Of a DNA stretch of 39,521 nucleotides, positions 3,206 to 32,404 are shown piece by piece; position 1 is the first letter of the stretch; the number at the start of each line of letters is the position of its first letter. Position numbers and translations under genes: made by a program. The stretch covers positions 1-39,521 of the forward strand of contig JAGYLD010000018.1 of assembly GCA_018401355.1 (NCBI GenBank), given 5' to 3'. The stretch is from Bacteroidales bacterium (GTDB lineage: Bacteria; Bacteroidota; Bacteroidia; Bacteroidales; B18-G4). The notes below the pieces were generated by a model. The model had not been told where the DNA came from. It made no database searches and was given only the letters and a program-made list of their open reading frames with translations.

Positions 3206-4225
3206 TTATGATTTAAAAATCTTTGCCCAGCCTCTTCTTTCACGGTTTTTCCAATCGGCATTATGATAAAGGTAACTGGTAATAAGTGGAAGGACTGAAG
3301 TTGCTTCAGCATAGACCATCTGCTCATAAACAGTATCAACTTTTCCCCAGGATGCCGCCTCCTTCAGCGTGGAACTGGAGCATGCACCATCCCTGACATC
3401 TGCTACAGTAATCTGAATCGCATATTTGTGCATTGGAACATCCTTGCCAAGGATCTCAGCACAAATAACGGTATCCTGTGTGAAATTTTTTGGTACACCC
3501 CCTCCTATCATGAATAAGCCTGTGGTGCTGGCTTCCATTTTCACCATGGTAAGTTCCAGGAAATCCTTCACCGAATCAATGGATACATGCTTTTGGGGAT
3601 TCTCCCACTGGTGCTTTACAAGTCCAAACCCTGCACTGGAGTCGGAGAAAGCCGGACAAAAAATGGGAACATTATTTTCATAGCAGGCTTGTATCAGCGA
3701 ATCTTTCTTTTTTGAATTTTTCACAAGGTATTCCCCCATTTTTTCAATAAACTCCCTGGAAGAATAAGGCCTTGGTTCAAGTGTGTCAGCGATTGCCTTG
3801 ATGGTCATATCACAGGCCTGCAGTTCTTCTTCGTCGATATATGTGTCGTAGATCCTGTCGATATATAAATCCCTGAGTTCAGCATCATTGGCAGTTGGTG
3901 ACCCCTTATAATGCTTGTAACCAAGAGCTTCCAGGAAGTCCATATCAACAATGGAAGCACCGGTTGCAACAATGGCATCGATCATATTGTGCTTTACCAT
4001 ATCAACATAAACCTGCATGCATCCACCTGCGCTGGTACTGCCAGCCAGGGTAAGGATCACCGAACAATCCTTATCAGTGAGCATCCGCATATATATATCC
4101 GTAGCAGAAGCAACCTCCCTGGAGGTAAACGACATATCCCGCATGGCATTGATGATGGGGGTGCTGTCGAACGACTTGAAATCAATATGCTTGATGGTTT
4201 CTTTTAACACATCTTTCTTTTTCAT
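3206..4225 (-). CDS. Deoxyhypusine synthase-like NAD-dependent polyamine enzyme
   Basis: A 339-residue homologue of deoxyhypusine synthase. Seen features are the NAD-fold stretches LTLAGSTSAGGCMQVYVDMV and ATGASIVDMDF, GGGVPKNFTQD, and the SWGK motif whose lysine (about residue 295) matches the eukaryotic catalytic lysine that forms the aminobutyl intermediate. Bacteria lack eIF5A, so the protein-modification role is unlikely. Bacterial homologues are thought to move the aminobutyl group of spermidine to another amine, for example putrescine to give homospermidine. That substrate is inference here. A longer frame opens at TTG 4234, but the ATG at 4225 is preferred. It follows agmatinase by 20 bases in the same operon. 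Confidence 0.9.
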   Translation of the reverse strand: MKKKDVLKETIKHIDFKSFDSTPIINAMRDMSFTSREVASATDIYMRMLTDKDCSVILTLAGSTSAGGCMQVYVDMVKHNMIDAIVATGASIVDMDFLEALGYKHYKGSPTANDAELRDLYIDRIYDTYIDEEELQACDMTIKAIADTLEPRPYSSREFIEKMGEYLVKNSKKKDSLIQACYENNVPIFCPAFSDSSAGFGLVKHQWENPQKHVSIDSVKDFLELTMVKMEASTTGLFMIGGGVPKNFTQDTVICAEILGKDVPMHKYAIQITVADVRDGACSSSTLKEAASWGKVDTVYEQMVYAEATSVLPLITSYLYHNADWKNRERRGWAKIFKS

Positions 4226-4245
4226 AGCAAACAATTATTAATTGA

Positions 4246-5115
4246 TTATAACATTCCTTTTTTCTTATATATGGCGCCAAGGATCTGATATAATAGCTTG
4301 GACGCAAAGAAATCCGATGATTTGTCAGCGGGATTGGGACAAAGTTCCACAACATCAAAACCAACAACCTCAAATTTATCAACAACGGCTCTGACAAGGT
4401 TCATCACTTCATGGTAGTATAGTCCTGAGGGCTCCGGTGTTCCGGTGGAAGGAAGAACCGAAGGGTCAAACCCATCCAGGTCGATGGTAATGTATATCTT
4501 TCCTGAAAGCTTATTGCATACCTCGGCAATCCAGTCATGATATCTGTTGTTTCTAATATCTCTGGCATAAAACACTTTTCCTTCGGGAAGGCATTGTTTC
4601 TCTTCAACATCCATGCTGCGTATTCCCACCTGTACAAAAGGGCACCATTCCCTGACCCTTGCCATAACGCAGGCATGGTTGTATCGACTGCCTTCATATT
4701 CCTGCCTCAGATCTGCATGTGCATCTATTTGCAGAACCTGCAGATCCTGGAACTTCTCCCAATAAGCTTTGATGGCACCAATGCTAACCGAATGTTCTCC
4801 TCCTATCGTTACAACCATTTTTTCCTTTTTCAGCCAGGCGGAAGTTTTTGTATGAACGGCTTCAGCCATAGCCTCCGGGGATGCATCTTCCATTACATAA
4901 TCTGACGTATGGATGCCGACAAGAAAATTTTCCGCACCGGTATCCAGGTCATAAAGCTCCATATTTTCAGATGCCTCAAGCAAGGCATCCGGGCCTTTAT
5001 CAGCACCTTTGATCCATGTGCTGGTACCATCATAAGGAACCGGTAAAATAACCACGGCAGCATTTTCCGGATCACGGTATTGCAGGGGAATGCCACCGAA
5101 ATAAATTTTTTTCAT
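4246..5115 (-). CDS. speB: Agmatinase (ureohydrolase family)
   Basis: Hydrolyses agmatine to putrescine and urea with a two-manganese centre. The 289-residue protein carries all ureohydrolase metal motifs: GGEHSVS (His108), DAHADLR (Asp131, His133, Asp135) and TIDLDGFDPSVLPSTGTPEP (Asp212, Asp214). Length and motifs fit agmatinase rather than arginase, and the genomic position between arginine decarboxylase and a deoxyhypusine-synthase-like gene supports agmatine as substrate. The gaps are 30 bases after speA and 20 bases before the next gene. The related guanidinobutyrase or formiminoglutamase activities cannot be excluded by motif alone. Confidence 0.93.
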   Translation of the reverse strand: MKKIYFGGIPLQYRDPENAAVVILPVPYDGTSTWIKGADKGPDALLEASENMELYDLDTGAENFLVGIHTSDYVMEDASPEAMAEAVHTKTSAWLKKEKMVVTIGGEHSVSIGAIKAYWEKFQDLQVLQIDAHADLRQEYEGSRYNHACVMARVREWCPFVQVGIRSMDVEEKQCLPEGKVFYARDIRNNRYHDWIAEVCNKLSGKIYITIDLDGFDPSVLPSTGTPEPSGLYYHEVMNLVRAVVDKFEVVGFDVVELCPNPADKSSDFFASKLLYQILGAIYKKKGML

Positions 5116-5145
5116 GTCTATGGTATAAAATTAACTTCAAAAAGG

Positions 5146-6537
5146 TCAATAACCAAGAATTTTTAACATGGGCTTATAGGTTTGCTCTTTGGCAAATAAC
5201 TTCGTCAGGTATTCGCCATCCTCATCAAGATCTATAATGATATGCTTTGGAGCAGGGATGAGACAATGCTGGATTCCGCCAAAGCCGCCAATGGATTCCT
5301 GATAAGCACCGGTATGAAAAAACCCGATGTACAAAGGCTCCTCACGATTAAAAACAGGTAAGAAAACAGCGTTTGCATGGGATTCTGCATTGTAATAATC
5401 CATGCTGTCACAGGTAAGTCCACCCAGAAACACCCGCTGATACGCCTGATCCCATTTGTTTACAGAAAGCATGATGAAACGCTGGTTTGAAGCCCATGTA
5501 TCAGGCAAAGTGGTCATAAATGAGCTGTCGATCATATTCCAGCTTTCCCTGTCGTTTTGTTTCTTTTGATCCAGGATGGAATATAAAACCGCACCGGATT
5601 CACCAACAGTAAAGGATCCAAACTCTGTAAAAATATCCGGTTCAGGAACACCGTTGCGCTCACAGGTATTTTTGATCTGGGCAATGATCTCCTCAGTCAT
5701 ATATTCGTAGTCATAATCAAACGACAAAGAGTTTTTAATGGGAAATCCACCGCCAATATTCAGGGAATCCAGTTCGGGACAAATCTTCTTCAGCTCACAA
5801 TATACATTGACACTCTTGCTGAGTTCATTCCAATAATATGCGTTATCACGTATCCCCGTGTTGATAAAGAAATGAAGCATTTTTAACTCAAACAGGGGAT
5901 TTTTTTGGATTTCTTTCTGATAGAAAGGCACAATGTCATTATAACGGATACCAAGCCTTGAAGTATAAAAATCAAACTTTGGCTCCTCCTCTGAAGCGAT
6001 GCGGATCCCTAGCATGGCTTTCTTCTTGAAGGACTTTTTATAAGATTCTATTTCCTGCATATTATCCAGGATGGGGATGGTATTGATAAAACCAGAGTTT
6101 ACCAGATCCGCAATGTTTTCATGATACTGAGGCCTTTTAAAACCATTGCAAATGATATACTTATCCTTTTTGATCATGCCCTGTTCGAACAATTCCTGTA
6201 CAATATTGATATCAAAAGCCGAAGAAGTCTCGATATGCACATCATTTTTCAGAACTTCTTCAAGCACAAATGAAAAATGAGAACTTTTCGTACAGTAGCT
6301 GTAATGGTATTCTCCCTGGTAATCAGCCTTCGCCATGGCAACATTGAACCAACGTCTTGCCTTTTGTATTTGCTCTGCAATCTTGGGCAGATATGTTATT
6401 TTTAATGGTGTTCCATATTGTTTGATGATTTCCAATAAAGGAATATTGTGAAAAAATAACTGGTTCTCTTCAACATGGAACTCTTCCTGTGGAAAATCGA
6501 AAGTCTGTTCTATCAGATCAATATATTTGTTTTTCAT
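5146..6537 (-). CDS. speA: Arginine decarboxylase, fold-III PLP type (short Bacteroidota form)
   Basis: Probably converts arginine to agmatine with pyridoxal phosphate. The 463-residue protein has the alanine-racemase/ornithine-decarboxylase fold: candidate PLP lysine Lys84 in YHYSYCTKSSHF, a phosphate-binding GGGFP, and the active-site GLTCDSMDYY (Cys376, Asp380) of fold-III decarboxylases. It is much shorter than the ~650-residue enterobacterial SpeA. A diaminopimelate or carboxynorspermidine decarboxylase is the main alternative, but the following agmatinase gene favours arginine. It is the first gene of a four-gene operon and starts at the ATG at 6537, with a 266-base intergenic region upstream. 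Confidence 0.88.
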   Translation of the reverse strand: MKNKYIDLIEQTFDFPQEEFHVEENQLFFHNIPLLEIIKQYGTPLKITYLPKIAEQIQKARRWFNVAMAKADYQGEYHYSYCTKSSHFSFVLEEVLKNDVHIETSSAFDINIVQELFEQGMIKKDKYIICNGFKRPQYHENIADLVNSGFINTIPILDNMQEIESYKKSFKKKAMLGIRIASEEEPKFDFYTSRLGIRYNDIVPFYQKEIQKNPLFELKMLHFFINTGIRDNAYYWNELSKSVNVYCELKKICPELDSLNIGGGFPIKNSLSFDYDYEYMTEEIIAQIKNTCERNGVPEPDIFTEFGSFTVGESGAVLYSILDQKKQNDRESWNMIDSSFMTTLPDTWASNQRFIMLSVNKWDQAYQRVFLGGLTCDSMDYYNAESHANAVFLPVFNREEPLYIGFFHTGAYQESIGGFGGIQHCLIPAPKHIIIDLDEDGEYLTKLFAKEQTYKPMLKILGY

Positions 6538-11556: not shown

Positions 11557-12543
11557 TTATGGCTTGGGAACATTTTTCATATTTTGCATCATGCGCATCA
11601 TATTCCTGCCCTTAGATCCCGTCATCATGCGCATCATCTTGCTTGTTTCACCAAACTGTTTGATCAGCTTGTTTATTTCCTGGATATCCTGGCCGCTTCC
11701 CCTTGAAATTCGTTTCCTCCTGCTGCCGTCCAGTATCTTGGGATTAATTCTTTCTTCCGGGGTCATGGAGTATATGATGGCTTCAATGCCTTTGAATGCA
11801 TCATCATCAATATCAAGATTTTTTATGGCTTTTCCCATTCCCGGGATCATACCCATCAGGTCCTTAACATTCCCCATTTTTTTGATCTGCTTGATCTGGT
11901 TCAGGAAATCGTTGAAATCAAACTGATTTTTGGCAATTTTCTTTTGCAGCCGTTGGGCCTCTTTTTCATCAAATTGCTCCTGGGCCTTTTCAACCAGTGA
12001 AACAATGTCACCCATGCCGAGGATCCTGTCGGCCATACGTCCCGGGTAGAACATGTCGATGGCATCCATTTTCTCACCTATACCAACGAACTTAATGGGT
12101 TTGTTTACGATGGATTTAATAGAAAGGGCAGCACCACCGCGGGTATCTCCATCCAATTTGGTCAGGACAACGCCGTCGAAATTGAGCCTGTCGTTGAAAG
12201 CTTTGGCGGTATTGACCGCATCCTGTCCGGTCATGGAGTCCACCACAAACAAGGTTTCCTGGGGATTCAGGGTATCTTTTAATGATGAGATCTCGTTCAT
12301 CATCTGCTCATCAATGGCAAGACGGCCGGCGGTATCCACGATTACCACATTGTGACCTTTATCTTTGGCATGCTTGATGGCGTTTTTAGCAATTTTGACA
12401 GGTTCCTTGCTCCCCTCTTCTGTATATACTTCTACTGAACAAGTAAAATATAAAGAAAATAATAATGAAGCATTCTTAATCTCTTTAAAAGAATTTAGAA
12501 ATAATTTTACTAATGGCGGCGGGCCGGTAAACATCGCCGGCAA
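11557..12543 (-). pseudogene. ffh: ffh C-terminal fragment (GTPase G3-G5 and M domain)
   Basis: The genuine ffh part runs from 12435 to 11557. It holds VEVYTEEGSKEPVKIAKNAI, G3 VIVDTAGRL, G4 VLTKLDGDTRGGAALSI, the closing GIGEKMDAIDMF, and the methionine-rich M domain that binds signal peptides and 4.5S RNA ([20 protein letters not shown]). The residues encoded from 12543 to 12436 are not Ffh and come from an AT-rich replacement plus out-of-frame ffh sequence. The piece alone lacks the N domain and P-loop and has no proper start, so it cannot make a working signal recognition particle protein. Ffh is normally essential, so an assembly fault or a second copy elsewhere should be considered. Confidence 0.85.
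12436..12511. other. 76-base AT-rich segment replacing part of ffh
   Basis: Only 13 of these 76 bases are G or C, far below the flanking gene. On the ffh strand, sequence in one frame up to 12512 reads MMVAGDVYRPAAI and sequence from 12435 onward reads VEVYTEEG. An intact Ffh would have only about 11 residues between these, so the segment is both foreign in composition and about 40 bases too long. Read on the plus strand it gives EQVKYKENNNEAFLISLKEF, a protein-like string. It may be a captured scrap of AT-rich coding DNA or an assembly join. Confidence 0.6.
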
Positions 12544-13226: not shown

Positions 13227-15638
13227 ATGAAAAAAACAATTACCAGGTTTACATTGATGCTGACAAGCATTTGTCTGATATTATTTTCATATGCACAGGA
13301 TGCGCAAACCAATATCCTGGCAGGACAACAAGTTAACGAAGCTGTTAAGCAGACAAAACAGCTAAATCAGAATTCATTTGTCCAGGGAATCCCGTCCCGT
13401 CACAATTCAAACACAAACAGAGTGCTTACTGAAATCAATTTTGATGATATGTTTGGTGCACCTACTGGATTTTCCGCTGTTCTTCCGCTTCATAATGAAT
13501 ATACAGGATATGGGATAACATTTTGGGGACCGACTGCAGATGATGGGGGAGCAATACTTGATGAAGGTTCCTCTTTTGGAGTAACAGGGTATTCCCCACC
13601 AAACTTCCTGGCGTTCAATACAGGAGCAACCTTAGCCAATGGAGGAACACCACAAGGACCAGAGGACATTTATTTTGATCCTCCCGTTTCATATGTGGAA
13701 ATACTTGCTGGTTCATCTGCAGCCGGCACTATTGATATGTTCGCTTACGATGAAATGGATAACCTGCTGGATTTTGATCAATTAACAGGGTCTGATAATT
13801 TACAACTGATGTCTGTGTCCGGAGAAAGGATTGCAAAAGTAAACATCCAGTTCAGTGGAAACATCTTGGTTCTGGACAATCTTATTTTCGACACCTATCT
13901 TCCACCCGATAACCTTGAGATGCAATATTTACCGGGATCTCAAATGGCGAATTTTGAATGGAAATATGCCACCATCAACGGAATTAATGATGAATTTATG
14001 AATGATGCCTCCAATTGGATCCCTGTAACCGGTGACTGGTATATTGATCCGGGAACGTATGTTGCCGAAAATATAGATTTTCAGGTAGCAACTTCATTCT
14101 ATAATTATAACTTCTCCGGTTTTGACCTGGAAGTCAAAATGAAAAAAAGTCAGGGAAGTGGTTGCAATGTTGGAATATATTTCCATGGAGACCCATCCAA
14201 AATTAATGATACCGGTAATTGGATGAATGGATATCATTTAATTGTATGCAATAATGGTACTTATAATATTGTCCTTTATGAAAATGGAAGTTATTTTTTG
14301 ATTCAGGATATAACTTTCAGTGCAAACCTGAATACAGGAGCCGACACATATAACACCATCAGAATCATCCGTGACAATGGATACATTGAAGTGTTCTTCA
14401 ATGGTTTTCCGGAGGGCACCTGGTATGACGACACCTATAATTCAGGAAAAATCGGATTAAAGCTTTTTGATGGTAGTCCGGGAGCCGGAAAAGGATACTT
14501 CGATTATGTAAAGATCAATCCTTTAACTGACGGATTTACATTCCAGCCGGTGAACCAGGCAAAATACCGGAAAGCTTATACTGAAAACGATGATTGTGCC
14601 AATTGCAGTTCATGCACTTCGGAAGATTACACACTTGAGCTGGCCCCATACCCTCCTGAAAATCAATTTACATTTTTCGGCAACAGAGCTTTCCAGGGTT
14701 TTAATTTTTATATGAACGGCAATTTAATTGACCAAACCGGTGTTCCAAGCCATTCGTTAAACCTGACAGACTTCATGTTATATAACTTTTACGTTACGGC
14801 ACAGTATGATGAAGGTGAATCAAATACCACAAACAATGAACTGCTATGGATTATCGACAATCCATTATACAGCCAGATCCCTTACAATCCTTCTGAAGCA
14901 TGGGTTGCACATATCAGTGATGCTAACATTTTGGTACCCATGACAGTATATGATAACTTCACCAGCTCTGAAAGCATCTATGGACTTGAATTTTTGGGAC
15001 TAAATCTTGAATTCAACGGGTCATCGTATCAAACATGTAACAATGAAGATCCAATGGATTTTCTCATTAAGCTCTATGAAGATGATGGAGGCTCACCGGG
15101 AGCAGAGATAGCTTCTTTTTCACCTACGATAGAAAGAATTGAAACCAATGTAATATTTACCTTCAATAACGGAGATGCGCCGCTCTTCCACTACAGGTAC
15201 TATTTCCCAAGTCCGGTGGAACTAAATGAAGGATGGGTGTCGGTCCAGGGCACTTCCGAATCCACTCCTGATTGCCTGTTTTTATGGATGAGTTCCCCTG
15301 AAGGTGACGGTTTGGCTTACCAATCGGATGGATCTGTGATGATCCCTATTGACGACGCATCATTTGCCATTTTAGGCGAATCTTCCGTTGGGATCATAGA
15401 AGTTCCTGAAGATAATATCCGGATCTATCCTAATCCCGTCGCAAACCGTCTCTATATTGAATCTGAAATGGAGATACTGGAGGTTGCCATTTATAACCAT
15501 TTTGGTCAGGAAGTCTATCGTGAAAAATACCGGAGCAACAATATGGAAATAAATACATCTGCATTCGCTGCCGGTTTATACATGTTGAGCCTCTCTACCA
15601 GCGAAGGTAGCATTACAAAGAAGATAATTATTTATTAA
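13227..15638 (+). CDS. Large T9SS-exported protein, tandem paralogue A
   Basis: An 803-residue secreted protein of unknown function. It has a signal peptide (residues 1-23, ending near SYAQ). A beta-rich domain follows (~66-235, INFDDMFG..GFSAV, YGITFWGPT, PQGPEDIYFDPP, VLDNLIFDTYLPP), like modules often found in secreted adhesin-like proteins. Next is a concanavalin-like jelly-roll domain (~265-435, FEVKMKK-type strand, VGIYFHGD, GKIGLKLFDG). A short cysteine cluster, CANCSSC (~456), comes before a further beta region. The end is a type A sorting domain (~725-803, IRIYPNPVANRLYIES ... SITKKIIIY). It starts with ATG at 13227. The next gene, 40 bases downstream, is a close paralogue. No catalytic motif was recognised; glycan binding is only suggested by the jelly-roll fold. 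Confidence 0.85.
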   Translation: MKKTITRFTLMLTSICLILFSYAQDAQTNILAGQQVNEAVKQTKQLNQNSFVQGIPSRHNSNTNRVLTEINFDDMFGAPTGFSAVLPLHNEYTGYGITFWGPTADDGGAILDEGSSFGVTGYSPPNFLAFNTGATLANGGTPQGPEDIYFDPPVSYVEILAGSSAAGTIDMFAYDEMDNLLDFDQLTGSDNLQLMSVSGERIAKVNIQFSGNILVLDNLIFDTYLPPDNLEMQYLPGSQMANFEWKYATINGINDEFMNDASNWIPVTGDWYIDPGTYVAENIDFQVATSFYNYNFSGFDLEVKMKKSQGSGCNVGIYFHGDPSKINDTGNWMNGYHLIVCNNGTYNIVLYENGSYFLIQDITFSANLNTGADTYNTIRIIRDNGYIEVFFNGFPEGTWYDDTYNSGKIGLKLFDGSPGAGKGYFDYVKINPLTDGFTFQPVNQAKYRKAYTENDDCANCSSCTSEDYTLELAPYPPENQFTFFGNRAFQGFNFYMNGNLIDQTGVPSHSLNLTDFMLYNFYVTAQYDEGESNTTNNELLWIIDNPLYSQIPYNPSEAWVAHISDANILVPMTVYDNFTSSESIYGLEFLGLNLEFNGSSYQTCNNEDPMDFLIKLYEDDGGSPGAEIASFSPTIERIETNVIFTFNNGDAPLFHYRYYFPSPVELNEGWVSVQGTSESTPDCLFLWMSSPEGDGLAYQSDGSVMIPIDDASFAILGESSVGIIEVPEDNIRIYPNPVANRLYIESEMEILEVAIYNHFGQEVYREKYRSNNMEINTSAFAAGLYMLSLSTSEGSITKKIIIY

Positions 15639-15678: not shown

Positions 15679-18087
15679 ATGAAAAAAACAATTACAAGGC
15701 TCACAATCCTATTTCTGGGGTTATTTCTTTTAAATATTTCCGGTGCACAGGAAGCCGGGGAATACTATCAGGCAGGAATACTTGTGCAAGAAGCTGTTAA
15801 ACCGGCAAACGAGGCCAGTCAAAACTCTTTTGTCCAGGGGATCCCTTCCAGGAATCAATCTTTTACCAACAGGGTTTTTACAGAAATCAATTTTGATGAT
15901 ATGTTTGGTGTACCTACTGGATTTTCTGCTGTTTATCCTCTTAATTACGAATATTCAGGCTATGGGATTACATTCTGGGGACCGACTCCAGATGATGGCG
16001 GGGCGGTACTCGATGAGGGTTCTAATTTTGGAGTCACAGGATATTCCGCACCGAACTTCCTGGCATTCAATACAGGATCAACCTTAGCCAATGGAGGAAC
16101 ACCGCAAGGACCAGAGGACATTTATTTTGATCCTCCGGTAGCTTATGTTGAAATTCTGGCCGGCTCAGCAAACGCAGGTACCATTGAAATGTTTGCTTAC
16201 GATGAATTGGATAACTTACTGGACTTTGATCAACTAACGGGGGCTAGTAATCTGCAACTGATATCTGTTGCCGGAGAAAGGATTGCCAAAGTTACCATTC
16301 AATTCAGTGGAAATGTGTTGGTTCTGGACAATCTGGTCTTCAACACCTATCTCCCACCCGATGATCTTGAAATGGATTATTTCCCGGGATCCCAGATGGC
16401 TGAATTTGAATGGAAATACGCAACCATGAACGGCATTGATGAGGAATTCATCTATGATGCAAACAACTGGATACCGGTAACCGGTGACTGGTATATTGAC
16501 CCGGGTGAATATGTGGCTGAAAATATTGATTATCAAACAGCTTCATCCTTTTATAATTACAATTTCTCAGGATTTGACATGGAAGTCAAAATGAAAAAGA
16601 ACACAGGCAATGAATGTAACGTTGGAATTTATTTTCATGGAGATCCGTCAAATATTAATAATAATGGTGGTTGGATGAATGGTTATCACCTGATCATTTG
16701 TTCAGATGGTCGCTATAATATTGTACTTTTTGAGAACGGAAGTCCTACGTTTATTCAAAACATAACTATAAGTCCAAATCTGAATACGGGATTAAATAAT
16801 TATAACACCGTAAGAATTGCACGTGAAAACGGCTATATTGAAGTCTATTTCAATGGGATTTATGAAAATACCTGGTATGACGACACCTATAATTCGGGAA
16901 AAATCGGACTAAAACTTTACGACCCTTCAGCAGGTGGGGGTCTGGGATTTTTCGATTTTGTTAAAATCAGTCCGGTCACAGACGGTTTTGCATTCCAACC
17001 GGTAAACCAACCAGAATACAGGAAGTATTTTGCTGAAACCGGAGAATGTGCAAACTGCAGTACATGTAATGATGAAAATTACACCCTTAAGCTTGCGCCA
17101 AATCCTCCTGAAAGCCAATTTACATTTCATAATGACAGGGTCTTCCAGGATTTTAACTTCTATATGAATGGCAATGTCATTGATCAACCCAATGTTCCAA
17201 ATCATTCATTGAACCTGACAGATTTCATGTTATACAATTTTTATGTATCGGCACAATACGATGAAGGAGAATCCAACCCCACCAACAATGAAATGCTTTG
17301 GTTAATAGATAATCCTCTGTACAGCCAGTTTCCTGCCAATCCGAGTGAATATTGGAACGCATATACCAGTGATGCCAATGCTACAGAGGCTTATCTTGTT
17401 TATGACAATTTTACCTCCACAAACGTAATACGGGGAATCGAGTTTCTTGGAATAAACCTTGAAAACGATGGTACATGGCATGTATGTGATGGCGAGGATC
17501 CAATGGATTTCATTATTAAATTCTACCAGGATGATGCAGGTATGCCGGGATCAGAAGTAGCATCATATAATGCAACACTGGAGAGGATTGAAACCAACAT
17601 TTATTATGGCCTTGGTTCCATGCAAATACCTCTTTATCATTACAGGTATTATTTCCCAACCCCTGTTGATCTTAGTGAAGGTTGGGTTTCAGTTCAGGGA
17701 AATTCTCTATCCTCACCAGATTGCTGGTATCTCTGGCTATCCTCACCTGAAGGAGACGGCCTGGCTTATCAATGGGATGGTTTTGATATGAACCCGATTG
17801 ATGACATTTCTTTTGCTATATTGGGAGAATCTTCCGTAAGCATTGAGGAAGTCATGCAAAACAGCATTAATATCTATCCCAATCCTGCAACCGATCACCT
17901 GTATATCGAATCCGAACTGAATACTGCAGAGGTGACCATATACAATCATTTCGGACAGGAAGTTTATCGTATAGAACATCCTGGGAACATATTGGAAATC
18001 AACACTTCAACATTTGCAAATGGTGTTTACCTTGTTCGCCTTTCAACCGATAAAGGAAGCGTTACAAGAAAAGTAATAGTCCAATAA
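15679..18087 (+). CDS. Large T9SS-exported protein, tandem paralogue B
   Basis: An 802-residue protein that aligns end to end with its upstream neighbour. By eye the ~170-residue N-terminal domain is about 85% identical, while the middle and C-terminal parts differ more. It has the same parts: signal peptide ending near SGAQ, INFDDMFGVPTGFSAV domain, jelly-roll domain with VGIYFHGD and GKIGLKLYDP, cysteine cluster CANCSTC, beta domain with RYYFPTPVDLSEGWVSVQGN, and type A sorting domain (INIYPNPATDHLYIES ... SVTRKVIVQ). A recent tandem duplication is likely. Both open frames are intact, so both are probably expressed as one transcript, perhaps ended by the inverted repeat that follows. Confidence 0.85.
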   Translation: MKKTITRLTILFLGLFLLNISGAQEAGEYYQAGILVQEAVKPANEASQNSFVQGIPSRNQSFTNRVFTEINFDDMFGVPTGFSAVYPLNYEYSGYGITFWGPTPDDGGAVLDEGSNFGVTGYSAPNFLAFNTGSTLANGGTPQGPEDIYFDPPVAYVEILAGSANAGTIEMFAYDELDNLLDFDQLTGASNLQLISVAGERIAKVTIQFSGNVLVLDNLVFNTYLPPDDLEMDYFPGSQMAEFEWKYATMNGIDEEFIYDANNWIPVTGDWYIDPGEYVAENIDYQTASSFYNYNFSGFDMEVKMKKNTGNECNVGIYFHGDPSNINNNGGWMNGYHLIICSDGRYNIVLFENGSPTFIQNITISPNLNTGLNNYNTVRIARENGYIEVYFNGIYENTWYDDTYNSGKIGLKLYDPSAGGGLGFFDFVKISPVTDGFAFQPVNQPEYRKYFAETGECANCSTCNDENYTLKLAPNPPESQFTFHNDRVFQDFNFYMNGNVIDQPNVPNHSLNLTDFMLYNFYVSAQYDEGESNPTNNEMLWLIDNPLYSQFPANPSEYWNAYTSDANATEAYLVYDNFTSTNVIRGIEFLGINLENDGTWHVCDGEDPMDFIIKFYQDDAGMPGSEVASYNATLERIETNIYYGLGSMQIPLYHYRYYFPTPVDLSEGWVSVQGNSLSSPDCWYLWLSSPEGDGLAYQWDGFDMNPIDDISFAILGESSVSIEEVMQNSINIYPNPATDHLYIESELNTAEVTIYNHFGQEVYRIEHPGNILEINTSTFANGVYLVRLSTDKGSVTRKVIVQ

Positions 18088-18568: not shown

Positions 18569-19906
18569 TTAAATTACACCCTGATCCAGCATCGCGTTGG
18601 CAACTTTTAAGAAACCGGCGATGTTCGCACCTTTCACGTAGTTAATGAATCCATCTTCCTCTTTTCCATGCTTTACGCATTGTTCGTGTATGCTTTGCAT
18701 AATGTGGTGCAGCCTGTCATCTACTTCTTCTGAAGGCCAATTTAGTTTCATAGCATTCTGAGACATTTCCAGACCGGACGTTGCAACGCCACCGGCATTT
18801 ACTGCTTTACCAGGTCCAAAAAGTATTTTGTTATCCAGGAAAACCTCCACGGCTTCCGGTGTACTTGGCATATTGGCACCTTCAGCTACGCATTTGCAAC
18901 CATTATTCACCAGGTTCTCAGCATCTTCTTTATTCAACTCATTCTGAGTAGCGCAAGGAATGGCCACATCACAAGGCACTTCCCATGGATGCTTACCCTG
19001 ATGGAATTGAGCGCCTGGGAACTCATATGAGAATGGTTTAACAATATCCTGGTTAGACGCACGGAGTTCTAGCATATAATCAACTTTTTCTCCGGAAATA
19101 CCATCCGGGTCATAAATATATCCATCGGGACCTGAAATGGTAACAACCATACCTCCCAGTTGATTGATCTTTCTTGCAGCTCCCCATGCCACATTGCCAA
19201 ATCCTGAAAGACAGAATTTTTTACCTTCAATATTCTCTCCTATCGTGGCGAGCATCTCCTTTGCAAAATAAACAGAGCCATACCCTGTAGCTTCAGGCCT
19301 GATAAGGCTTCCTCCCCAATTGACACCCTTTCCAGTGAGAACACCGGTATTTTCACGTGCCAGTTTCCTGTACATTCCATACATGTATCCAATTTCACGG
19401 CCACCAACACCAATATCACCGGCAGGTACATCGGTTTGAGGTCCGATGACTTTCCAAAGCTCAAGCATAAATGACTGGCAAAACCTCATGATCTCACCAT
19501 CAGACTTTCCTTTTGGATCAAAATCCGAGCCGCCCTTTGCGCCACCCATTGGCAGTGTAGTCAGGCTATTTTTAAAGATCTGCTCGAAGCCAAGGAATTT
19601 AAGTATGCTCAGGTTAACACTGGGGTGAAACCGTAACCCACCCTTATAAGGTCCAATGGCATTGTTATACTGTACCCTGTATGCAAGGTTCACCTGAACA
19701 TTGCCATTGTCACCTACCCACGGCACCTTAAATGTGTAAATCCTGTCAGGTTCAATCAACCTGTCAATAATACCTGCCGATTCAAAATGGGGATTCTCAT
19801 TAACCACCTCTTCAATCGATTCCAATACTTCCCTCACTGCCTGAAGATATTCGCTCTCACCCGGATGCTTTTTCTCCAGCTCATTCATAATTTTTTCAAG
19901 ATTCAT
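18569..19906 (-). CDS. gdhA: NADP-type glutamate dehydrogenase
   Basis: Catalyses 2-oxoglutarate + ammonia + NADPH to glutamate, a main ammonia-assimilation route. The 445-residue length equals that of hexameric bacterial GdhA. Seen motifs are GPYKGGLRFHPSVN (substrate lysine Lys88), LPMGGAKGGSDFDPKGKSDG with catalytic Lys124 and the KGKSDGE segment typical of NADP-type enzymes, DVPAGDIGVGGREIGYM, and the Rossmann loop LSGFGNVAWGAA. It is a single-gene unit with its own promoter, a perfect palindrome at the predicted transcription start and a strong terminator. NADP versus NAD preference is inferred from family similarity. Confidence 0.96.
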   Translation of the reverse strand: MNLEKIMNELEKKHPGESEYLQAVREVLESIEEVVNENPHFESAGIIDRLIEPDRIYTFKVPWVGDNGNVQVNLAYRVQYNNAIGPYKGGLRFHPSVNLSILKFLGFEQIFKNSLTTLPMGGAKGGSDFDPKGKSDGEIMRFCQSFMLELWKVIGPQTDVPAGDIGVGGREIGYMYGMYRKLARENTGVLTGKGVNWGGSLIRPEATGYGSVYFAKEMLATIGENIEGKKFCLSGFGNVAWGAARKINQLGGMVVTISGPDGYIYDPDGISGEKVDYMLELRASNQDIVKPFSYEFPGAQFHQGKHPWEVPCDVAIPCATQNELNKEDAENLVNNGCKCVAEGANMPSTPEAVEVFLDNKILFGPGKAVNAGGVATSGLEMSQNAMKLNWPSEEVDDRLHHIMQSIHEQCVKHGKEEDGFINYVKGANIAGFLKVANAMLDQGVI

Positions 19907-27508: not shown

Positions 27509-28357
27509 CTACACCAATGTTTTCACAGCTTTTTCAGGATCACTCAAATCTATCCTTACCAGAGATAATTCCTTCCCGTTCCATGCGCCATTAATGGCTG
27601 TAGTTTTCCTGAATGACTGTTTCCAGTTCCCGGTTATCGAAGATGATTCATGAATATGACCATGAAGTGTCAACAATGGTTGTCTTTCTTCAATAAACCG
27701 CATTATTGCTATACTTCCCACATGCACATCAAGTGGAACATGATCTATTGACTGACCATCAAGAGCAGCCCTGTCCAGGTCCGTCTTATATGGCGGTGAA
27801 TGAAATAAAAAAACAGCATTTGACAAATCATCCCCATTGGAAAGTTTTTCCAAATCGCTTTTTATGCTGGCGTATTCAATATCGACTTCCGGTTCCACAG
27901 AAAAAAATCCGTCTGTAGGATGGATACAGCCAGGATCAACATACCTGGAAACATCATATCTTTCCCAGTCCTTTAACCTGAAAGGCGTAGGAGGAACATG
28001 CGCATACCCATAAAAAGTAAAATCGCCTGAAACATGCTTTTCCATATGCAAATATTTCCAGACCCCTTCCTTTTCTGCCATTTGAAATCTTTGTTCATTG
28101 ACCCGTGGATCATCATTCCCCAGAATAACCATAACCTCAGGGTATTGACCCTTCATATTTTTTCTTAATAAAAGAAAATTTTTCAACAAGTATTCCTGAA
28201 AGAAATCATCGTAATCCGATTTTATTCCAAATCCATGAGGCAAAAGGTCTCCGCCCAATAAAACATACAGCGGTTTTTCCTTTTCTATTAAGGCAAAAAG
28301 TTTATTATACCGGCTTTCGCTGCCATGAAGATCGGTTACAAAAAAACAATTATGCAT
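27509..28357 (-). CDS. Calcineurin-like metallophosphoesterase
   Basis: A 282-residue cytoplasmic-looking protein with all metallophosphoesterase metal motifs in order: TDLHG (Asp9, His11), LLGGDLLP (Asp37), ILGNDDPR (Asn81), FLFHSPPYKTDL and LHGHIHESS. It should cleave a phosphoester with two metal ions, but the substrate is unknown. It starts 4 bases after the stop of the sensor-nucleotidyltransferase gene, itself 2 bases after an M23 peptidase gene, so the three form a tight operon. The pairing suggests the esterase may undo a product of the nucleotidyltransferase; this is inference. Confidence 0.88.
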   Translation of the reverse strand: MHNCFFVTDLHGSESRYNKLFALIEKEKPLYVLLGGDLLPHGFGIKSDYDDFFQEYLLKNFLLLRKNMKGQYPEVMVILGNDDPRVNEQRFQMAEKEGVWKYLHMEKHVSGDFTFYGYAHVPPTPFRLKDWERYDVSRYVDPGCIHPTDGFFSVEPEVDIEYASIKSDLEKLSNGDDLSNAVFLFHSPPYKTDLDRAALDGQSIDHVPLDVHVGSIAIMRFIEERQPLLTLHGHIHESSSITGNWKQSFRKTTAINGAWNGKELSLVRIDLSDPEKAVKTLV

Positions 28358-28361
28358 ATGG

Positions 28362-29222
28362 TTATGTATTCAATTTCAATGGCCTGGCCCTGTCACTTAC
28401 AGCATTGATCATCGAAGCATAGCTGTCCCTATTCTCAATATCTTCATCTGTAACTATGTGAACATCAATAAGGCTTTCGTTGGAACGATATCCTGTCCTT
28501 GCATAGTTCATTTCATCAAGGCATAATCCCCATCCTTCCATCCATGCTTTCAACTCCGTCTTTTGACCATCATTTCCATCAAAGTGCACTATAAAGTCAA
28601 GATCACTTGCAGGACCGGCAGTTGCATTTTTTGTACTTCCGATCAAATACAATCCTTTAACACCAAATCTTTCCAGATTCATCAAACGGGCAATGTTTTC
28701 AGCTATCTTTTTTCTCCATTTCCAGTGCTCATCGGTTTCCGGCCCTAAAATCATCTTTCCGTTCGATTCCTCAACAATCTTGTCGTTTGACTTTTTAAGA
28801 AAATCAAGTGATGAGATAAGCTGCCGCTTAAAAACAGTTCTTCCAATGCTCCCAGAAATTGTATTAAGAAGCTTTTGCTCTTCAGGCAGAAATGCACTGC
28901 CCCGATGAAGCCTGATGAGTTGAGTATATGCTACTTGCACACTTCCAGCAACATGCTCATCAACAACTATATCAGCACTTTGCATCCATTCTGTTTCCCT
29001 GAAATCAGGTGTGATGTGTGACTCATCTTCAAATATTATCCTTGCCTCACAAACTGTTGTATACTGATATCCCATGGGTATCACCTCAACAACTTTTCGA
29101 AAAATATCCTTTAAAGCAAGTTCATCATTTTGAAGGAACTTTTCTACATCATATAAGCAGTTTAATTCCTTTTCCCTTTCTTTTAGCTTTTCCAAGCTAA
29201 CATTTCTAATTTTATCCTGCAT
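28362..29222 (-). CDS. Sensor-like (GAF-type) domain fused to a nucleotidyltransferase
   Basis: A 286-residue protein. Residues 1-25 form a charged helix, and ~20-135 (EKELNCLYDVEKFLQNDE, PMGYQYTTVCEARIIFED, EEQKLLNTISGSIGRTVFKR) resemble the GAF-like module found ahead of histidine kinases and PEP-synthase-like proteins. A linker helix leads to a polymerase-beta-type nucleotidyltransferase at ~165-286, with GST (195-197), Asp207 and Asp209 in SDLDFIVHF, and Asp253 in LIDVHIVTD as the third metal ligand. All three acids are present, so it is probably active. There is no export signal. It could add nucleotides to a protein, RNA or small molecule; the target is unknown. Confidence 0.8.
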   Translation of the reverse strand: MQDKIRNVSLEKLKEREKELNCLYDVEKFLQNDELALKDIFRKVVEVIPMGYQYTTVCEARIIFEDESHITPDFRETEWMQSADIVVDEHVAGSVQVAYTQLIRLHRGSAFLPEEQKLLNTISGSIGRTVFKRQLISSLDFLKKSNDKIVEESNGKMILGPETDEHWKWRKKIAENIARLMNLERFGVKGLYLIGSTKNATAGPASDLDFIVHFDGNDGQKTELKAWMEGWGLCLDEMNYARTGYRSNESLIDVHIVTDEDIENRDSYASMINAVSDRARPLKLNT

Positions 29223-29224
29223 GA

Positions 29225-30931
29225 CTAATTATGTATTTCTAGGGTAAAAACAGATTTATTTTCTTTTTCATCTTCCACTTCCAGGACAAATTCATTTATG
29301 CCTGGCTTAAGCATATCATCCCTCCGGTATATCAGCATATCGTTCTTCAGGTCATATTCCATTAATATCCAATCCCCGTTCATAAAAGCTTTGTATGATT
29401 TGATTCCTGAAAGGTCATCCGTTATATAACATCTTATCATACCCGTTTTCAAAATAGATAAACCCTGATCTTTGACTTTTATTTCCGGGGGGGTTGTATC
29501 CACCGCAACAGCATATTTCCCAAATTCTCTGATGCGTGCATTAACAAATCCCTGACAATATTCCCCTCCGGCACTTTCAGGATTTCCTTCCTCATCCAGC
29601 CTCACCAAAACAGCCTTGCTTTGAAGACTATCTGGAAGATCAACTACCCTTAAAGAAAGACCTGCGTACTTATGCAAGGGAATTGCATTATTATTAATGG
29701 TGTGAATATGAGAAAAATATCCATCACATTGATCTTCAACAGTATAAACAAAATCAACATGATCATACAAAGCATATGCAGGAACTTCGAGCCGCATATT
29801 ATTGGTGTCAATTACGGTCTCATCCCTCCAGGAAAGAAGGGTTAAAGGTTCCTGGGTTTTAACAAACAATGAACTGTCAGGATTTCCCTTTTTAGCAACA
29901 AAAAAAGTTAATTCTGTGTTATTTCCTGAAATATCAGATGCAATAATGGAAATTTTATGAGGTTGATCATCCTTCAGTTTAATTATCCCATCATCATGGA
30001 TCTTTCTGTAAACCCTGAGTTTGTTATTCGGATCTACTTTAGTTCTTATAAACCGCCGTTTACTTTTAACATATTCTCCATAATCAATCAAGCTGTTTAT
30101 ATACCTTGTATCCCCGAATCTAAAACGATCCATTCGTTGATCATAAAAAACTTCTGAATCAATTAAAACCGTCAGGCTGTATATACCGTTTTTATTAGCA
30201 GTCCTGTTTGCCTGATCGTAAACATCAACGCCCAGGTAAAAATCACAGGAAACATAAATGGTATCTTTTTCTTCAAGGAACTGCCGGATACCATTCTTTC
30301 TCACACGGAATTCCATTGGGTTTATTAAATAACCTTTCAGTGAATCATCCTGCTGATATAACCTTATGGATCTGAATATGGGACGAACCCGGTCTTCATT
30401 CAGAAACCCGAATAGTTGCGGGTTAAGAGGTTCCTGGGTATCATCATCCCGTATTTCAAAATGCAGGTGAGGACCAAAGGAGTAACCGGAATTTCCGGAA
30501 CGTGCAATGATTTGTCCTCTTTTTACAGGAAATCTGTCCTTTTCAGGAAATAGATTTACAGAAAAACTTTCCTGGCGATACTGTTCCAATCTGACATATT
30601 CCTCAATATTTTTGTTAAACTGATCAAGGTGAGCATAAACAGACATATAACCATTGGGATGTGATATGTACAGAGTTTTTCCAAAACCACCAGGAGATAC
30701 TTTTATCCTTGCAATGTGTCCGTCAGCAACAGACCTTATTGGATGACCTGATGAACCACTGGTACGGATATCCATCCCTGAATGAAAATGATCTGTTCTG
30801 AGTTCTCCGAAAGTTCCTGAAAGGAAAATTTTAAAATCAACCGGAGAAGAAAAAGCATGTTTTTTTTCAGGCCCCTGGGCATTGACCCATAAATTTAAAA
30901 ATAGTAAAAGCAATATTCCAATTTTTCGCAT
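29225..30931 (-). CDS. M23 family peptidoglycan endopeptidase-like protein
   Basis: A 568-residue exported protein with signal peptide MRKIGILLLLFLNLWVNAQG. The LytM/M23 domain spans ~30-170 with zinc-site motifs DHFHSGMDIRT (HxxxD), YMSVYAHLDQF and GPHLHFEIRD, all present, so it should cut peptide cross-links in peptidoglycan. The remaining ~400 residues are beta-rich domains (SLTVLIDSEVFYD, INEFVLEVEDEKENKSVFTL) usual in the Bacteroidota form of the family. It is the first gene of a three-gene operon with the nucleotidyltransferase 2 bases downstream, an unusual partner for a periplasmic enzyme. Confidence 0.92.
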   Translation of the reverse strand: MRKIGILLLLFLNLWVNAQGPEKKHAFSSPVDFKIFLSGTFGELRTDHFHSGMDIRTSGSSGHPIRSVADGHIARIKVSPGGFGKTLYISHPNGYMSVYAHLDQFNKNIEEYVRLEQYRQESFSVNLFPEKDRFPVKRGQIIARSGNSGYSFGPHLHFEIRDDDTQEPLNPQLFGFLNEDRVRPIFRSIRLYQQDDSLKGYLINPMEFRVRKNGIRQFLEEKDTIYVSCDFYLGVDVYDQANRTANKNGIYSLTVLIDSEVFYDQRMDRFRFGDTRYINSLIDYGEYVKSKRRFIRTKVDPNNKLRVYRKIHDDGIIKLKDDQPHKISIIASDISGNNTELTFFVAKKGNPDSSLFVKTQEPLTLLSWRDETVIDTNNMRLEVPAYALYDHVDFVYTVEDQCDGYFSHIHTINNNAIPLHKYAGLSLRVVDLPDSLQSKAVLVRLDEEGNPESAGGEYCQGFVNARIREFGKYAVAVDTTPPEIKVKDQGLSILKTGMIRCYITDDLSGIKSYKAFMNGDWILMEYDLKNDMLIYRRDDMLKPGINEFVLEVEDEKENKSVFTLEIHN

Positions 30932-31093: not shown

Positions 31094-31678
31094 ATGAAAG
31101 ACCTGAGCAAAGGTAAAGAAAGCCGCCTGATACTGCATTTCGCAACACCAATGCTGCTGGGCAATATATTTCAGCAGATGTATAATGTTGTTGACAGCAT
31201 TATCATTGGAAACGTCATCGGAAAAGAGGGTCTGGCTGCTGTTGGAGCATCTTTTCCCATTCTGTTCACGATGATTTCACTGATCATTGGAATCGCTATC
31301 GGATCAACTGTCATCATATCTCAATATTACGGTGCGAAGGACATTGAAAAAGTAAAAAAGGCCATTGACACCCTTTACATCTTTATATTTTTTGCTTCAA
31401 TTTTCATATCGGTTGTTGGTATATTATCGAGTGATGCTATATTCAGGCTCATTAAGCTTCCTGAGAATGTTATTCCCCAGGCCAGCCTTTATCTGAAGAT
31501 ATATTTTTCAGGAATGTTACTTTTTTTCGGTTTCAACGCAACCAGTGCCATTCTCAGAGGGCTTGGCGACTCCAAAACACCCCTTTATTTCATGATCATA
31601 TCAACAATAACAAACATTGTTCTTGATCTGTTATTCATTGTTGGATTTGGATGGGGAGTGGCAGGAGCAGCCATTTAG
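31094..31678 (+). pseudogene. MATE efflux transporter, intact N-terminal part of a decayed gene
   Basis: Opens MKDLSKGKESRLILHFATPM and continues as a normal MATE transporter through about five membrane segments (NIFQQMYNVVDSIIIGNVIG, GIAIGSTVIISQYYGAK, ILRGLGDSKTPLYFMIISTI). It stops at TAG after GWGVAGAAI. The expected continuation ATIIAQGG resumes at once in another frame, so a two-base gain or one-base loss ended it. MATE proteins export cationic drugs or metabolites with Na+ or H+ and need about 12 segments, so this half is not expected to work. Confidence 0.88.
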
Positions 31679-32404
31679 CTACGATAATTGCCCAGGGCGG
31701 AGTTAAGCCGACTGCCATTATTTATCTTAACAAAAACTTCCACTGTATAAAACCTATCCTGAGGAAACTGTATTTTGTCCGTGACATATCCATAAAAAAC
31801 ATCCGTACGGATTTCCCATTGGGTTTCAGCAAGCCTTTGTTGCCTTGGCATGACTGTTATGTACTGGCTTAGAATCCATTTGGCACGGAAACTGTGGCTG
31901 CCTATAGTGTTGTTTTCAGGATTGACCTTTGCAGCTATGCCGGCAATGAACTTTGCTGCAGCATTTTCCACTTTCGTCGGTCAAAACCTGGGAGCCAATA
32001 AACCCCACCGTATCAAAACAGGTTTGATTGCTACATTCAGGATGACGTCTTTGCTTGCTGTTACCATATCCATCATTAACATTGTATTTTGCAAAAAACA
32101 TTATAGGTTTTTTACATCCGATGCAGAGGGTAAAGATCGTGCCGAATACCTGATTGTAAGTCCGTTTTACATAACCTTTACTGCCATGTTCGCTGTCGGT
32201 GGGGTTATGAGAGTAGCAGGAGATACGAGGAAGTACCAATGGTCATTGGTATCTACTTTATGTCGCGATACCTGCCTGCTACCTGCTTCCAAATCATATG
32301 GAGCTGTTGGAATCTAGGGCATCCCGCTGGCCTGGCTCACCTGGGTTGATACTTTTATACATTTACTACCTTTCCAAGAAATGCATGTTCCAAAGCTTTG
32401 GTAA
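31679..32404 (+). pseudogene. MATE transporter, frameshifted C-terminal remainder
   Basis: Recognisable MATE pieces follow in changing frames: ATIIAQGG and IIYLNKNFHCIKP (to ~31830), then VMYWL, then PFGTETVAAYSVVFRID, then the longest piece FAAMPAMNFAAAFSTFVGQN through MFAVGGVMRVAGDT (31918-32230), then VPMVIG, PACYLL and GIPLAWLT. Near 32317 an in-frame TAG stands where relatives have Trp. At least five small insertions or deletions are needed to restore one frame. Order and content are kept, so decay by point lesions rather than rearrangement is likely. From 32405 to 32612 no gene was seen. Confidence 0.8.

Follow-up and report, generated by a model that had tools for sequence, protein, structure and literature searches.

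A GAF-nucleotidyltransferase and metallophosphoesterase gene pair of Bacteroidales with conserved links to glutamate dehydrogenase and PPDK_N proteins

A stretch of 39,521 nucleotides from a Bacteroidales bacterium (assembly GCA_018401355.1, contig JAGYLD010000018.1, positions 1 to 39,521; hereafter the window) carries a gene pair in which a fusion of a GAF sensor with a nucleotidyltransferase (NTase) is followed by a metallophosphoesterase (MPE). The pairing of the two as a functional unit is strongly supported, because linkage of the genes extends over about 15 phyla and the surroundings of the NTase active site are altered where the MPE is missing. The conserved partners of the pair are glutamate dehydrogenase (GDH) and proteins with a PPDK_N (ATP-grasp) domain, and on the best reading the window holds the compact Bacteroidales form of a widespread system of these genes. 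The features of the window that bear on this are as follows (aa, amino acids):

29222-28362, minus strand: GAF-NTase fusion, 286 aa (Pfam and AlphaFold2 model)
28779..29222, minus strand: N-terminal coiled coil and GAF sensor, residues 1-148 (AlphaFold2 model, VIA matches to GAF domains)
28365..28736, minus strand: pol-beta NTase domain, residues 163-286, with GS195-196, D207, D209 and D253 (Pfam NTP_transf_2, invariance among 140 relatives)
28357-27509, minus strand: MPE, 282 aa, with a full metal site (Pfam Metallophos, AlphaFold2, VIA and conservation)
18569..19906, minus strand: GDH, 445 aa (PF00208, 294.8 bits), a candidate member of the same pathway
30931-29225, minus strand: M23 peptidase, the upstream neighbour of the pair (Pfam Peptidase_M23, E 6.8e-21, above the cut-off)

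Linkage of the two genes and constraint on the nucleotidyltransferase

Searching a sample of 395 genomes of the host phylum returned the MPE in 18 and the NTase profile in 30, including all 18 MPE-positive genomes (hypergeometric p 1.5e-23). Within the host order, the NTase was present in 42 of 295 genomes and the MPE adjoined it in most of those examined, while a recheck of 18 NTase genomes found the MPE encoded in 15 of them, mostly adjacent. Named genomes were then scanned with the NTase profile, and the best 80 loci, which are the closest relatives and not a random sample, carry labels of about 15 phyla (as deposited; nearly all of the genomes are metagenome-assembled, and some labels are doubtful). 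The MPE was adjacent to the NTase in 62 of the 72 loci that left room for it on the contig. In most phyla, the GAF and NTase domains flank a PPDK_N ATP-grasp domain as the two termini of a larger, ~1065-aa protein (the large form), and the window protein is a short form. The two genes lie on the same strand in 13/13 short forms and converge in 46/47 large forms, so their proximity outlives rearrangement. NTases that lack the GAF domain still stand beside the MPE (loci L096, L074, L077, L222 and L223), which makes NTase and MPE the minimal unit. Conservation across families and phyla places the gene arrangement far beyond chance, and the gene-neighbourhood survey that the initial annotation of this DNA had proposed, with a missing association as the outcome that would speak against it, links the pair across about 15 phyla.

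Constraint on the NTase itself also depended on the presence of the MPE. Two residues next to the catalytic motifs, K198 (two positions after GS) and H255 (two positions after the third Asp), were both kept in 104/106 NTases with an MPE and in 6/22 without (Fisher p 1e-13; the p-values for this covariation ignore the relatedness of the sequences, and a highly diverged MPE could escape detection). Comparing 273 columns of the large protein that are conserved in the MPE-positive set with MPE-negative proteins gave a mean conservation loss of 0.15 in NTase columns and of 0.03 elsewhere (p 3e-8), and NTase identity relative to PPDK identity dropped from a ratio of 1.00 to 0.88 without the MPE (p 0.006). 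GDH columns were nearly unchanged when the MPE was missing. Where the MPE is lost, the NTase is hence altered while PPDK_N and GDH remain almost as they were, a pattern that ties the MPE to the product of the NTase. The initial annotation had proposed that the pair could make and break a nucleotide signal or a nucleotide tag on a protein: the functional unit stood, on linkage and on the change of the NTase without the MPE, while the chemistry of writing and erasing would fit these sequence patterns.

Domains and active sites of the two proteins

The initial annotation was correct in every detail of what it had observed. It described a GAF-like sensor fused to an NTase that keeps GS and three acidic residues, and indeed the predicted structure of the sensor matches GAF domains, and GS, D207, D209 and D253 were all found. 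It also placed a complete MPE 4 bases after the NTase gene, in agreement with the open reading frames (ORFs), Pfam and the metal ligands, and an M23 peptidase 2 bases upstream of the NTase gene, in agreement with ORF and Pfam.

Residues 1-150 of the 286-aa protein had no Pfam match, leaving the sensor unseen by sequence profile. The AlphaFold2 model of the protein (mean pLDDT 82, pTM 0.50) was compared by VIA, and its residues 8-153 matched the GAF domains of DosP (Z 13.0, 124 aligned, 2.8 A) and 3cit (Z 12.9, 126 aligned, 2.6 A), followed further down the list by NifA (Z 11.2) and the phosphoenolpyruvate (PEP) phosphotransferase PtsP (Z 10.7 and 10.4). The modelled sensor has a GAF fold, so that 'GAF-like' was right; the Z values are nearly tied, and no ligand is named from them. 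A domain homologous to this sensor also occurs in histidine kinase-sized proteins and in PPDK_N proteins.

The NTase domain was recognised by Pfam as NTP_transf_2 (PF01909; 29.3 bits against a cut-off of 21, E 1.2e-6). Its G, S and three Asp are invariant in 140 relatives, save for L076 (one D to N) and one truncated row, and for a T in place of the S in three of the relatives; the spacing from GS to the first Asp is exactly ten residues (GSX10D) in 140/140. GSX10DXD is common among small NTases, and the motif alone names no substrate. The NTase core spans ~120 aa without an additional helical domain, and the 286-aa protein, like its ~1065-aa relatives, has one NTase domain. The structure match lists for the fusion consist mostly of GAF domains, and for this reason no NTase subfamily is claimed.

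The PDB sequence search gave no useful relative of the GAF-NTase protein and none of the MPE, and nothing useful matched in the viral structure library. In the NCBIfam scan, no curated family of known substrate passed its cut-off for the NTase, so that an established unrelated substrate such as an aminoglycoside, which the initial annotation had named as the finding that would overturn it, was not encountered. PADLOC returned weak matches to the candidate families PDC-S09 and PDC-S10 that cover generic motifs only, and no CD-NTase profile; a defence role is accordingly not claimed. No NCBIfam or PADLOC family covers the GAF-NTase/MPE system convincingly.

The MPE matched Metallophos (PF00149) with 36.9 bits against a cut-off of 21.5 (E 6.6e-9) and has the metal-site motifs DLH, GGD, GNDD, H186 and GHIH; the ligands D9, H11, D37, N81, D82, H186, H234 and H236 are kept in 102-103 of 103 relatives. 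Its AlphaFold2 model (pLDDT 90.9) was matched best by aq_1956 (2yvt; VIA Z 22.7, 227 residues, 3.5 A), with TT1561, Mre11, SbcD and MPPED2 among the other matches, and is closest to the phosphodiesterases and nucleases of the superfamily. The class III MPEs aq_1956, TT1561, MPPED2 and Mre11 share fold and metal ligands with the window MPE, which at 13-18% identity to them forms a subfamily of its own that is tied to the NTase. The third motif of Mre11 is GNHD, in place of which the window MPE has GNDD.

Conserved partners and the compact Bacteroidales form

Clustering all neighbours identified GDH in 63/89 large-form loci, usually immediately upstream of a PPDK_N gene or of the fusion. A second PPDK_N gene (~590 aa) stands directly upstream of the fusion in 45/55 testable loci. 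The commonest order is GDH > PPDK_N > GAF-PPDK_N-NTase < MPE. GDH is the most constant metabolic partner of the system; its identity was checked by Pfam, NCBIfam and solved GDH structures, and the enzymes are of the Pyrococcus type in the large operons and of the NADP type in Bacteroidales.

The PPDK_N domain (PF01326) scored 207.3 bits in the large relative L081 and is absent from the window protein. It is common to the large relatives and the PEP synthase / pyruvate phosphate dikinase family, from which the former differ in having GAF and NTase at their ends and no detected phosphohistidine swivel (PEP-utiliser) domain. A swivel in the large GAF-PPDK_N-NTase relatives was considered and rejected, with no Pfam match and an HHalign probability below 1% against 14 swivel sequences from relatives. 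In some Bacteroidota and Ignavibacteriota, histidine biosynthesis-like genes (hisG, hisD, hisC, hisB, hisH and hisA) adjoin the system (L081, L083, L119, L125, L151, L181, L204-L206, L209, L212 and L213).

In the window, the GDH gene lies 7.6 kb from the MPE on the same strand. Of 27 short-form genomes, 7, belonging to five families, have a GDH gene no more than 10 kb from the pair, where ~0.3 would be expected if each 3.5-Mb genome holds two GDH genes. Bacteroidales also have large GAF-response-regulator (RR)-PPDK_N proteins without an NTase, often beside GDH: the host genome has two strong GDH matches, one inside the window and the other next to a GAF-RR-PPDK_N gene (G000:C137). In L095, L101, L113 and L219, GAF-RR-PPDK_N and RR-PPDK_N genes share one operon with the short GAF-NTase and MPE, and the L219 operon additionally holds a 374-aa protein with the same sensor domain. 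The GAF-RR-PPDK_N (~1155-1168 aa) and RR-PPDK_N (996 aa) proteins make up a widespread, uncharacterised GDH-linked family (in the host genome, L089:3932-7435), whose C-terminal ATP-grasp part carries the conserved motif G(T/S)HFF and no known phosphohistidine domain. A tree of the NTases (130 columns, poorly resolved) placed all large forms in one supported group (97/91), which includes two GAF-less or cut rows, and left the short forms outside, mostly unresolved; it favours neither an origin of the short form by deletion from the large one nor the opposite direction.

Proposed mechanism, rival explanations and neighbouring genes

The chances appear evenly balanced that the system consists of a sensor-controlled NTase as writer and a dedicated MPE as eraser, linked to GDH and following a logic like that of GlnE. 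Here, the GAF domain would bind a small metabolite and thereby set the pol-beta NTase, which would transfer a nucleotide (AMP derived from ATP is the likeliest) to a hydroxyl group on a protein partner in glutamate metabolism. This partner would most likely be GDH, otherwise the PPDK_N protein, and the MPE would reset it by hydrolysing the phosphodiester. I infer this mechanism, including the nucleotide, the protein nature of the acceptor and its identity, the ligand of the GAF domain and the direction in which control runs, from the domains, active sites and linkage, from the dependence of the NTase on the MPE, and from the precedents of MntA and the glutamine synthetase AMPylase. That a GDH or PPDK_N partner is reversibly nucleotidylylated by the GAF-controlled NTase, with the MPE as de-nucleotidylylase, is put forward tentatively, as a possibility that falls short of being probable.

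Several observations weigh against this mechanism. The MPE-negative rows come largely from two Bacteroidota families and represent few independent losses. Comparing MPE-positive with MPE-negative loci in search of an acceptor residue in GDH gave no clear site; the best column was a Tyr at position 299 (frame of the L217 GDH; 95% vs 69%), which is not claimed as acceptor. In most short-form genomes, a long distance separates GAF-NTase from GDH or the two lie on different contigs (some contigs are too short to judge), and some large forms live without an MPE, so the eraser is not universal. Finally, genome G004 (L097, C54, 2067-3163) is a rare case of an intact MPE where no NTase was found, the fusion next to it being reduced to a sensor stub of 101 aa.

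The main alternative acceptor is the PPDK_N protein, which the NTase domain would modify in cis where the two are fused (large form) and in trans where they are not (short form), and which the MPE would reset, GDH being a co-regulated metabolic gene. Such an acceptor is favoured by the direct GAF-PPDK_N-NTase fusion, by the PPDK_N gene that so often precedes it and by the operons shared between the short form and GAF-RR-PPDK_N or RR-PPDK_N genes, but the PPDK_N columns remain conserved upon MPE loss and several loci (L082, L087, L205 and L206) have GDH and the fusion without an upstream PPDK_N gene; I regard this variant as doubtful. It is unlikely that a free nucleotide signal, or else a nucleotidylated small molecule, is the product of the NTase and is degraded by the MPE. 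The pairing of an NTase with a phosphoesterase would suit a second messenger, as would the sensor, given that nucleotides and amino acids are ligands of GAF domains in known proteins. A free product is ranked lower because the recurrent neighbours are GDH and PPDK_N, with no effector or receptor gene among them; the lack of a CD-NTase profile among the PADLOC matches and the small core of the NTase also speak against it.

Processing of RNA or DNA ends, in which the NTase would add nucleotides to RNA and an MPE of the Mre11/SbcD fold would trim them, is very improbable: the MPE model does lie near Mre11, SbcD and MPPED2, and there is a weak Pfam match, below the cut-off, to the poly(A) polymerase central domain, but the conserved neighbours are metabolic and include no RNA-binding or nuclease partner. 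An NTase that modifies aminoglycosides or other antibiotics and stands beside a housekeeping phosphoesterase by chance is barely credible. Both kinds of enzyme share the NTP_transf_2 fold, and Foldseek listed AAD(9) (6xz0) at rank 47 (E 0.02); against this, NCBIfam resistance families gave no match even at E 1, and linkage to the MPE is near-strict over many phyla.

The logic by which an NTase writes and a second activity erases is already known in nitrogen metabolism from GlnE, to which the window system does not belong. GS-ATase, whose fold is pol-beta-like, AMPylates glutamine synthetase, an enzyme of nitrogen metabolism (PMC12409994), and GlnE shares with the window system a pol-beta-type NTase, an enzyme of ammonium assimilation, writing as well as erasing, and metabolite sensing (PMC12409994). 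It differs in having two NTase domains, with phosphorolytic removal of AMP by one of them, and in sensing through PII, whereas the window system has only one NTase, joined to a GAF sensor, and its MPE is a protein of its own, with GDH and PPDK_N nearby instead of glutamine synthetase; membership was rejected on the single NTase domain. MntA, likewise a small protein of the NTP_transf_2 family, shares GSX10DXD and the third Asp with the window NTase and is a proven protein AMPylase that modifies a tyrosine of HepT (PMC7641770). Unlike this HEPN/MNT (type VII) system, the window NTase has no HEPN partner and is paired with a phosphoesterase and a sensor; the genes around the pair encode M23 and an enoyl-CoA hydratase, with no HEPN (HepT) toxin gene adjoining, and a score of 18.4 bits against the equivalog cut-off of 60 likewise led to rejection of MntA membership. 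Membership in CD-NTase / CBASS systems was rejected for want of a CD-NTase profile and a recurrent effector gene. SidM/DrrA and SidD of Legionella, the former an AMPylase of NTase fold, resemble the pair in that AMPylase and deAMPylase, as writer and eraser, are encoded by neighbouring genes, but they are secreted effectors of unrelated biology, and the review that covers them (PMC12409994) does not call the eraser a metallophosphoesterase.

No GDH-PPDK-NTase or NTase-MPE system was found described in the open-licence papers searched, in keeping with the remark in the initial annotation that it knew of no described system with this arrangement. Few systems are known in which metabolic enzymes are covalently nucleotidylylated, and no bacterial GDH is known to me to be controlled in this way. 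If the proposed mechanism holds true, nitrogen metabolism would gain another control circuit built on an NTase, next to GlnE and GlnD, and bacteria of about a dozen phyla, many of them uncultured, would have a common nitrogen/carbon switch. The mechanism would also provide a role for PPDK_N proteins that lack the usual phosphohistidine domain, and metallophosphoesterases could join the protein de-nucleotidylylases.

A link to wall stress through the M23 peptidase, as initially suggested, did not hold up: the neighbourhood survey found M23 in front of the pair in three families only (f1, f157 and f130), and a role of M23 or wall stress as core of the system was rejected. M23, (GAF-)NTase, MPE and guaA are clustered in several Bacteroidales families (L074, L077, L091 and L102; 23106-30931 in the window), and in some of these loci, but not in others, genes for an alpha/beta hydrolase and an enoyl-CoA hydratase separate the MPE from guaA.

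Elsewhere in the window, a MATE-type efflux gene (31094-32317, plus strand) is split over two frames (31094-31678 and 31850-32317) and is probably frameshifted or misassembled. The ORF at 11557-12543 (minus strand, 328 aa, TTG start) resembles the C-terminal part of Ffh (signal recognition particle) alone, which makes a frameshift or assembly error upstream of it likely. Three adjoining genes at 3206-6537 (minus strand) form a polyamine-like cluster of deoxyhypusine synthase-like, agmatinase-like and carboxynorspermidine decarboxylase-like proteins. Lastly, two near-alike proteins of 803 and 802 aa are encoded in tandem (13227-15638 and 15679-18087, plus strand), pointing to a recent duplication, and have a C-terminal tail that resembles a secretion sorting signal.

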